Positions 26,745 to 39,347 of a stretch of 64,000 nt of DNA are shown one piece after another. The DNA is from Acidobacteriota bacterium (lineage in GTDB: Bacteria > Acidobacteriota > UBA890 > WLXD01), in assembly GCA_012103255.1 (NCBI GenBank), contig WLXD01000001.1, positions 868,001-932,000 of the forward strand. The letters are read 5' to 3'. Below the pieces are notes generated by a model. The model did not search any database and was not told the DNA's origin. It was given only the letters and a program-made list of their open reading frames with translations. Numbering within the stretch: the stretch's first letter is position 1; every line of letters starts with the position of its first letter. The position numbers and the translations under genes are program-made.

Positions 26745-27551
26745 CTAGCGCGGCACCGGCCGGCGTGAACGCGGACCGCGCGACTGCTCGTTGAGGGTCC
26801 AGTCGTAGTCCATGATCCTCACCGTAATGTCGTCGCGGTTGGCCTGCACGTACGTCGCGATGTCCTCGGGGCCGTAGCTCAGGGCGTAGTCCACTCGGGA
26901 GTCGGCCTTCTGGAGGAAATCGTCCTCGTACCAGTCGAAGTAGCTCGACAGGTAGAGCGTGTTGGAGGTCCGATCGAGCTGCATCCCGCGAGGTTGTGCC
27001 AGGAACTCGTGTGACTGTGCCTGCAGGGTCTGATCGAGCGTCTCGGCTCGGTAGGGCACGTTGAGCAGCCGCGGACATCCGAACGCCGCGCAAACCAGCG
27101 CCCAGTGAATCCTTTCATCGTCGAACTGGGCGCGGAGAGTGTCATGTTCGATGTTGTCAGCAGACATGTCACTGCCGGCGACCGTGTAGGTCTGCTTGAA
27201 GAAACCGCCGACCAGTCCCCAGAGGACGCCGACGTCACGGACCGAATCGATGGGGTGGCGTTCCACCACCTGCCAGATCACCACGGCGTTGTAGGCGTTG
27301 ATCCAGAACGCCATACGCTCCGCTTCGGTGGCAAATGTGTTCGGGTCGGTTCGGGCGAGCACGTCCATGAACGCCTGCAGGTCGCCCAATCCGCGCGTCT
27401 TGAGTCCGGCGTAGTCAACCAGGCCCTCGTCGTTCACGAACTCCGCGAGCGTTCGCTCCCAGGTGGCGTACATGTCGCTCTGCTGCGCAGTGGCGGCGCT
27501 CGGCGCGAGGAGGGCGATTGCGATCAGGGCGCTCGCGATCCGACGGGTCAT
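26745..27551 (-). CDS. Secreted DUF547 protein
   Basis: A 268-residue protein with signal peptide MTRRIASALIAIALLAPSAATAQ and a DUF547 domain, recognised by EAERMAFWINAYNAVVIWQVVERHPIDSVRDVG, HDTLRAQFDDERIHWALVCAAFGCPRLLNVPYRAETLDQTL and FLAQPRGMQLDRTSNTLYLSSYFDWYEDDF. The His and paired Cys in HWALVCAAFGCPRL are conserved in the family and could form an active site, but no activity is established. AGGAGA about 8 nt upstream supports ATG 27551. Confidence 0.88.
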   Translation of the reverse strand: MTRRIASALIAIALLAPSAATAQQSDMYATWERTLAEFVNDEGLVDYAGLKTRGLGDLQAFMDVLARTDPNTFATEAERMAFWINAYNAVVIWQVVERHPIDSVRDVGVLWGLVGGFFKQTYTVAGSDMSADNIEHDTLRAQFDDERIHWALVCAAFGCPRLLNVPYRAETLDQTLQAQSHEFLAQPRGMQLDRTSNTLYLSSYFDWYEDDFLQKADSRVDYALSYGPEDIATYVQANRDDITVRIMDYDWTLNEQSRGPRSRRPVPR

Positions 27552-27650
27552 GAACTCGTTTCTCCTGCGCCGTTGCCCGGGCAAAGGCGCGAAAATCAGT
27601 TGGCTCTCACGAGAGGTAAGTTTGTTGTGCGCGGCGCATTGGTTTCCAGT

Positions 27651-27669
27651 GTCCACTGAACGAGTGGAC
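27651..27669. other. Perfect 7-bp hairpin
   Basis: GTCCACT and AGTGGAC flank a 5-nt loop between the glutaredoxin-like gene and the DUF547 gene, both on the minus strand. There is no T-tract on either side, so it is not a standard terminator; it could be an RNA hairpin between cistrons or an operator. Confidence 0.3.
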
Positions 27670-27692: not shown

Positions 27693-27941
27693 TCATGTTC
27701 CGCGACGGAGTCGCTGCTCGATCCACGCCGGGTCGAAACCGACGGAGTGCTCGTCGCCGATGGTCACCACGGGCGTCGCGATCGGACCGCCTGTGATGGC
27801 TCTCAGCGTACCCCAGGGATCATCGAGTTGATCGATCTCGATGTAGTCGAAGTCGACTCCTGCCTGCGAGAGAAACTCCCTCGCTGCCTGGCACGGAGCT
27901 CAGCCGGGACCGCTGCTGTACAGGACGATACGTTGCGTCAT
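27693..27941 (-). CDS. Candidate selenocysteine-containing glutaredoxin (in-frame TGA at 27900-27902)
   Basis: An 82-residue minus-strand gene that a standard ORF search misses because of an in-frame TGA at codon 14. The product reads MTQRIVLYSSGPG-U-APCQAAREFL..., followed by a cis-Pro motif GGPIATPVVTIGD and SVGFDPAWIEQRL, a complete glutaredoxin/NrdH-like fold. The TGA replaces exactly the first Cys of the usual CxxC (U-A-P-C). A hairpin at 27866-27884 matches a bacterial SECIS. Other genes here use TGA as stop, so the code is standard. It starts 25 nt after tRNA-Gln on the same strand; no Shine-Dalgarno sequence is visible. Sec-containing glutaredoxins are known from marine metagenomes. 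The alternative is a nonsense pseudogene, which the precise position makes unlikely. Confidence 0.75.
27866..27884 (-). promoter_or_regulatory. Putative bacterial SECIS element
   Basis: Starting 16 nt downstream of the in-frame UGA, the minus-strand RNA forms an 8-bp stem GCGAGGGA / UCUCUCGC (one G-U pair) closed by the loop GUU, placing the loop 24-26 nt after the UGA. Flanking UGCC and GGCA (27861-27893) can extend it across an internal loop. Bacterial SECIS elements lie within the coding sequence just after the UGA, with a G in the first loop positions; SelB contacts a GU in the E. coli loop. Spacing and loop both fit. Confidence 0.6.
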
Positions 27942-27966: not shown

Positions 27967-28041
27967 TGGTTGGGGCGCAGGGATTCGAACCCCGATTCTA
28001 CGGTCCAGAGCCGCATGTCTTGCCAATTGGACGACGCCCCA
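27967..28041 (-). tRNA. tRNA-Gln (anticodon CTG)
   Basis: The minus strand folds into a full cloverleaf: acceptor TGGGGCG / CGCCCCA, anticodon loop CTCTGGA with CTG at positions 34-36, T-arm GGGG-TTCGAAT-CCC, discriminator A at 27970 and encoded CCA at 27967-27969. The TGGGG start and the anticodon fit glutamine. It lies directly upstream of the candidate Sec-glutaredoxin and could be cotranscribed with it. Confidence 0.96.
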
Positions 28042-39046: not shown

Positions 39047-39156
39047 TGTCTCCCGCAGTGCGCCCACTTTCAACGGAGCGCGCCGAGCAGGCCCGCTTCG
39101 CAGTCGGGACTGTACTGCCGAGCCCAGCGCGATTCGCAGTAGTTGTGTAGAAAAAG

Positions 39157-39245
39157 CGGAGGGGGTGGGATTCGAACCCACGGCACGAGAAAACCCGTGC
39201 AACGGCTTAGCAGGCCGCCCTATTCAACCACTCTAGCACCCCTCC
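39157..39245 (-). tRNA. tRNA-Ser (anticodon GCT)
   Basis: The minus strand folds to acceptor GGAGGGG / CCCCTCC, anticodon loop CTGCTAA (GCT), the long variable arm of class II tRNAs (GCACGGGTTTTCTCGTGC) and T-arm GTGGG-TTCGAAT-CCCAC. Discriminator G; no encoded CCA. TTTTT follows directly, which may aid termination. It is the second tRNA downstream of serS. Confidence 0.95.
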
Positions 39246-39255
39246 TCAAGGGTAG

Positions 39256-39347
39256 CGGAGGCAGAAGGATTCGAACCTTCGGACCGCCTTGTGAGCGGTC
39301 AACGGTTTTCAAGACCGTCGCATTCAACCTGACTCTGCCATGCCTCC
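39256..39347 (-). tRNA. tRNA-Ser (anticodon TGA)
   Basis: A 92-nt class II tRNA: acceptor GGAGGCA / TGCCTCC, anticodon loop CTTGAAA (TGA), long variable arm (GACCGCTCACAAGGCGGTC) and T-arm GAAGG-TTCGAAT-CCTTC. Discriminator G, no encoded CCA. It starts 53 nt after the serS stop on the same strand and is followed 10 nt later by tRNA-Ser(GCT). Confidence 0.95.

Follow-up and report, generated by a model that had tools for sequence, protein, structure and literature searches.

In the window analysed here, a stretch of 64,000 nucleotides from a genome of the phylum Acidobacteriota, a frame resembling a glutaredoxin is interrupted by a TGA, which raises the question whether the gene is broken or whether the codon specifies selenocysteine (Sec). 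The initial annotation had described a glutaredoxin frame broken once, by a TGA at the position of the catalytic Cys (GPG-U-APC), and codon 14 is indeed the sole internal stop: among 83 codons, only this TGA and the last codon are in-frame stops. The frame runs on the minus strand, which the initial annotation had left unspecified. With TGA as U, the translation reads MTQRIVLYSSGPGUAPCQAAREFLSQ...FDPAWIEQRLRRGT and is followed by the terminal TGA (full product MTQRIVLYSSGPGUAPCQAAREFLSQAGVDFDYIEIDQLDDPWGTLRAITGGPIATPVVTIGDEHSVGFDPAWIEQRLRRGT). ORF-based annotation was expected to miss the gene, and the table-11 ORF list (at least 60 aa) contains no ORF in this frame. Our analysis corrects a gene lost by standard ORF calling. 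The gene very probably encodes a single-domain glutaredoxin/NrdH-like redoxin that is a selenoprotein, with the UGA at codon 14 predicted to be read as Sec. The case rests on a frame conserved on both sides of the UGA, retention of the UGA itself, covariation in a hairpin behind it and complete decoding machinery. Coordinates of all features are compiled in the table.

Features of the Sec-glutaredoxin locus, in positions of the window
Feature	Position	Strand	Remark
Sec-glutaredoxin gene, 82 residues	27693..27941	(-)	glutaredoxin-like frame read through UGA
Start codon ATG of Sec-glutaredoxin gene	27941-27939	(-)	
In-frame UGA, codon 14, first residue of UxxC motif	27900..27902	(-)	TGA kept in relatives
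Terminal TGA of Sec-glutaredoxin gene	27693-27695	(-)	
SECIS-like hairpin, 8-bp stem + GUU loop	27866..27884	(-)	pairing, covariation
Hairpin left arm	27877-27884	(-)	
Hairpin loop GUU	27874-27876	(-)	
Hairpin right arm	27866-27873	(-)	
tRNA-Gln(CTG)	27967..28041	(-)	25 nt upstream of start codon; neighbour, not mechanism
DUF547 gene, downstream	26745..27656	(-)	neighbour in 5/5 loci examined

The read-through protein, with U given as C, matched the Pfam family Glutaredoxin (PF00462) with 41.9 bits (E=1.2e-10) and lies above the gathering score of 22.9, which makes it a member of this family. Positions U/C14, C17 and T56-P57 are invariant across 11 aligned rows, so that both a CxxC-type active site and a cis-Pro (T-P) loop are present. 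The best NCBIfam matches were UXX-star family 2, YruB, Uxx-star and NrdH, none of which reached its curated cut-off: 43.2 of 100 bits for NF041211, 42.1 of 66 for NF041212, 19.6 of 72 for NF041114, 39.3 of 85.75 for NrdH (TIGR02194) and 42.8 of 88.55 for YruB (TIGR02196). On these scores we rejected the protein as a member of the NCBI-defined UXX-star, NrdH and YruB families. Six TGA homologues, drawn from 10 TGA rows including that of the window, also stayed below the NCBIfam cut-offs, one of them narrowly (88.3 of 88.55, YruB), and the Cys homologue of genome G138 barely made the Uxx_star cut-off (66.3 of 66).

The protein is nonetheless related by profile to the UXX-star family (NF041211, NF041212, NF041114), with NF041211 as its top NCBIfam match, and its GPGU fits the motif GxGU given for NF041211 in the table of PMC13188914. 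It differs from UXX-star in scoring far under the curated cut-offs and in having Cys as the fourth motif residue. The NrdH/YruB redoxins (TIGR02194, TIGR02196; PDB 1r7h, 1h75) can be aligned almost end to end. NrdH is known as a Cys protein, and we take the GFDP near the C-terminus of the window protein to be similar to the NrdH signature.

With the 11-row profile the nearest solved structure was 7c10 (81.1 bits), the glutaredoxin-1 of Clostridium oremlandii, which according to the available text of PMC7642778 is natively a selenoprotein, its motif being U(or C)PXC. Both proteins are single-domain glutaredoxins with Sec for the first active-site Cys and a retained resolving Cys, the motif being U/CPXC in C. 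oremlandii Grx1 and UAPC in the window protein. However, the window protein alone matches only distantly (28.4 bits), and the solved C. oremlandii proteins (7c10, 7c12, 7c13) have Cys replacing Sec. C. oremlandii Grx1 was proposed to reduce Sec-MsrA, whereas the only MsrA found in the window's genome is without an internal stop; a Sec-MsrA partner in this genome was therefore rejected.

Predictions of Sec-glutaredoxins with UxxC go back to 2005 (PMC1088965); such proteins are listed as verified in the table of PMC13188914 and also appear in the available text of PMC9312934 and PMC1794560. The accessible part of the Sargasso Sea survey gives 10 UXXC glutaredoxin sequences (PMC1088965), in agreement with the initial annotation, which had mentioned Sec-glutaredoxins from marine metagenomes; the GOS survey tabulates Grx and Grx-like UxxC rows (PMC2398784). 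The lineage of the window is not mentioned in the available text of these surveys. By published description of family and motif the window protein resembles these marine proteins in its PF00462/COG0695 family and UXXC motif. For Acidobacteria, three selenoprotein families with four selenoproteins were counted, but not identified by name, in the available text of PMC1794560, and one acidobacterium with three selenoprotein genes is described in that of PMC12013277. In our searches of open-licence papers, no study of an acidobacterial Sec-glutaredoxin came up. The UxxC selenoglutaredoxin is an already known kind of protein, of which the window gene is a well-supported further member, under the UXX-star and YruB cut-offs.

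We determined how far the UGA is retained among relatives. A search of 199 genomes with the single protein gave matches in 26; the six matches above 60 bits (the window's own genome, two congeners, one member of the family and two of the order) each carry one TGA at this site and, own genome excluded, show 48–65% identity to the window protein. When 396 Acidobacteriota genomes were searched with an 11-row model, a glutaredoxin of some kind was matched in 234, and the matches listed include 20 genomes in which a copy is interrupted at this position by a single TGA. Homologues in which Cys aligns with U, proposed earlier as a check, were found: C stands for U, and the in-frame UGA is aligned with Cys. 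A scan of named genomes yielded six loci, five from Acidobacteria/Acidobacteriota MAGs and one from a Burkholderiales MAG (a short match of 30 residues); a tblastn search of plasmids gave no match.

The TGA form is nearly always accompanied by SelA. SelA was detected (E up to 1e-40) in 251 of the 396 genomes and in 19 of the 20 listed TGA genomes; the exception, G007, is 75% complete and has neither SelA nor SelB over the cut-off. None of the eight genomes whose full-length Cys forms are closest, a set picked by coverage, has SelA (Fisher 2.9e-6 against the TGA genomes, genome kinship uncorrected). When the Cys set is extended by three matches that are partial or less closely related (G010, G023, G376:C83), SelA is present in 3/11 (Fisher 1.7e-4, kinship likewise uncorrected). 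A tree of the 20 TGA and eight Cys rows requires two label changes, with the Cys row of G138 sitting among TGA rows at moderate support (81/84). Since 12 of the 25 internal branches lack resolution and two rows sit on very long branches, we draw no history from the tree beyond the placement of G138.

Past the UGA the frame bears the marks of a coding sequence. Over 64 codons, pairwise comparison of four family-level sequences gave pS of 0.42–0.59 and pN of 0.16–0.30. Identity in frame 0 was 0.56–0.70 against 0.35–0.59 in the other frames, frame 0 being the most conserved in 6/6 pairs, and changes at third codon positions are about twice as frequent as at either of the other two. From these substitution patterns, translation most likely continues past the UGA. 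A conserved UGA with purifying selection downstream is a testable observation.

The initial annotation had pointed to a hairpin 16 nt past the TGA, with a stem of 8 bp and the loop GUU. We found it with all eight pairs formed, one of them G-U (GCGAGGGA-GUU-UCUCUCGC), and with its first stem base as the 16th base after the TGA. A stem-loop directly downstream of the UGA whose small apical loop contains a G is the bacterial feature described in the available text of PMC1088965, and the window hairpin has this form. The 36-base stretch folded alone gave z = -2.91; folds of 60–66 bases were unremarkable (z about -1.2 to -1.3), and the hairpin ranked only 57/500 against synonymous recodings. The single-sequence fold is therefore weak evidence; comparative evidence lifts the hairpin above chance. 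An Rfam search at the site returned no SECIS family, and an alignment scan with 11 rows gave no useful result.

In an ungapped alignment (A3) of 16 TGA homologues, 85.9% of the 128 cells of the named stem are paired. Five measures were taken. Stem covariation was 0.316 against 0.165 in shuffles, of which 0/500 reached this value, and sliding the stem along the alignment gave no more than 0.186. Two measures were less striking: the four stem pairs changed on both sides were matched or exceeded in 40/500 shuffles, and the further pair types in 127/500. The hairpin is absent from the eight Cys homologues, in which 45.3% of cells are paired, near the shuffled mean of 42.1%, and covariation is 0.129. 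Seven or eight of the eight pairs form in register in 13/16 TGA homologues and six in G286; G004 and G007 form 3/8, and their sequences fold instead into a stem of 7 bp capped by a 4-base loop. All 16/16 homologues keep the loop G. In G332, G190 and G337 the loop-closing A-U pair is replaced by C-G at the cost of two residue changes (GAG-TTT to GCG-TGG). SECIS hairpin pairing kept even where the protein changes is likewise open to test. The window hairpin contains rare codons, Arg AGG (5% of 169 Arg codons) and Phe TTT (13% of 98), as judged from five neighbouring genes.

A separate branch (G075, G120, G264 and G256; loci L060, L061, L062 and L063) has a stem of 6 to 8 bp that is shifted some nine bases downstream. 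These shifted stems are compensated as well (CCUCUC/GAGAGG, CCUUUC/GAAAGG).

The initial annotation had inferred that the organism encodes Sec machinery and had named the absence of selA, selB or selC as grounds for abandoning the candidate selenoprotein; the opposite was observed. In the genome (4.81 Mb, 9 contigs, 95% complete) the complete set exceeds the curated cut-offs: SelA with 534 bits (cut-off 268), SelB with 319.6 bits, or 346.3 with frame neighbours (242), SelD with 330 bits (125) and tRNA-Sec with 65.9 bits (gathering score 47), the same tRNA being named tRNA-SeC with anticodon TCA (UCA) by ARAGORN. The Sec trait of this acidobacterium is thereby shown to be complete. SelB is over the cut-off in 8/9 genomes of the order, again with G007 as the exception. 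SelD (L045:1021-2526) itself has one in-frame TGA (TSGGUAAK) and thus appears to be a second gene of the genome using the Sec system. Roughly a dozen bases past the UGA of SelD lies a strong hairpin.

Two other sets of matches were noticed during these searches. A tandem tRNA-Ser pair at 39156-39347 scored 45–47 bits with the tRNA-Sec model, just short of the gathering score of 47, and was named Ser(GCT) and Ser(TGA) by ARAGORN. Two equal-scoring SelB-profile matches 16 kb apart (G000:C8:101308-102168 and G000:C8:117642-118502), with frames of about 400 aa, are presumably duplicated EF-Tu genes.

A pseudogene or a sequencing error, in which a Cys codon was mutated to TGA and the frame is decaying, would also account for a single stop in an otherwise complete frame, as expected of a recent nonsense mutation, and broken copies do exist in the phylum: besides the 20 genomes counted above, SelA-positive G012 has a homologue (L074) with the TGA at the site and a later in-frame TAG, the result of decay or of misassembly. 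Nevertheless, the TGA occurs at the same codon in independent genomes with purifying selection downstream, the hairpin covaries, and the genome decodes Sec (SelA, SelB, SelD, tRNA-Sec). With the TGA conserved and constraint behind it we rejected this explanation, which we consider highly improbable.

Slightly less credible still is a UGA read without Sec insertion, either by a near-cognate tRNA or by general reassignment of TGA, with the hairpin as nothing but coding sequence. The weak single-sequence fold would fit such a hairpin, and the identity of the inserted residue is deduced from sequence. However, the internal TGA lies at the catalytic Cys, the residue that homologues carry, and compensatory changes maintain the pairing of the hairpin. 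The gene's own frame also ends at a TGA, as do the copies of G001, G002 and G003, no more than five codons past their last aligned residue. TGA thus seems to serve as an ordinary stop codon here, and general reassignment was rejected because of the terminal TGA.

For the selenoprotein reading, UGA at codon 14 would be decoded as Sec by SelB and charged tRNA-Sec, which the hairpin after the UGA would recruit. Going by what is known of the family, Sec14 would be the attacking residue of UxxC and Cys17 the resolving one. We infer redox activity along with Sec insertion, and reduction by thioredoxin reductase rather than glutathione: a search of the genome for the glutathione synthetase GshB gave 57.8 of 299 bits, under the cut-off, and thioredoxin reductase exceeded its cut-off with 371.6 bits, for which reasons thioredoxin reductase is favoured as the putative reductant. 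The genome has three other PF00462 matches, all without stops, so it encodes glutaredoxin-like proteins besides the Sec form.

More tentatively, and with rather less than even confidence, the TGA homologues may form a separate selenoredoxin lineage scattered in Acidobacteriota, outside the NCBI cut-offs for UXX-star, NrdH and YruB. Its members would act independently of glutathione and be reduced by thioredoxin reductase, Sec and Cys forms would swap with the Sec machinery, and the SECIS hairpin would have moved nine bases in G075, G120, G264 and G256 yet still be compensated.

The surroundings of the gene were compared across five order-level loci (L048-L052). A tRNA-Gln lies upstream in 5/5, close by in the two same-genus MAGs only. 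DUF547 is found downstream on the same strand as the Sec-glutaredoxin in 5/5, and in L049 a 389-aa ORF lies between the two genes.
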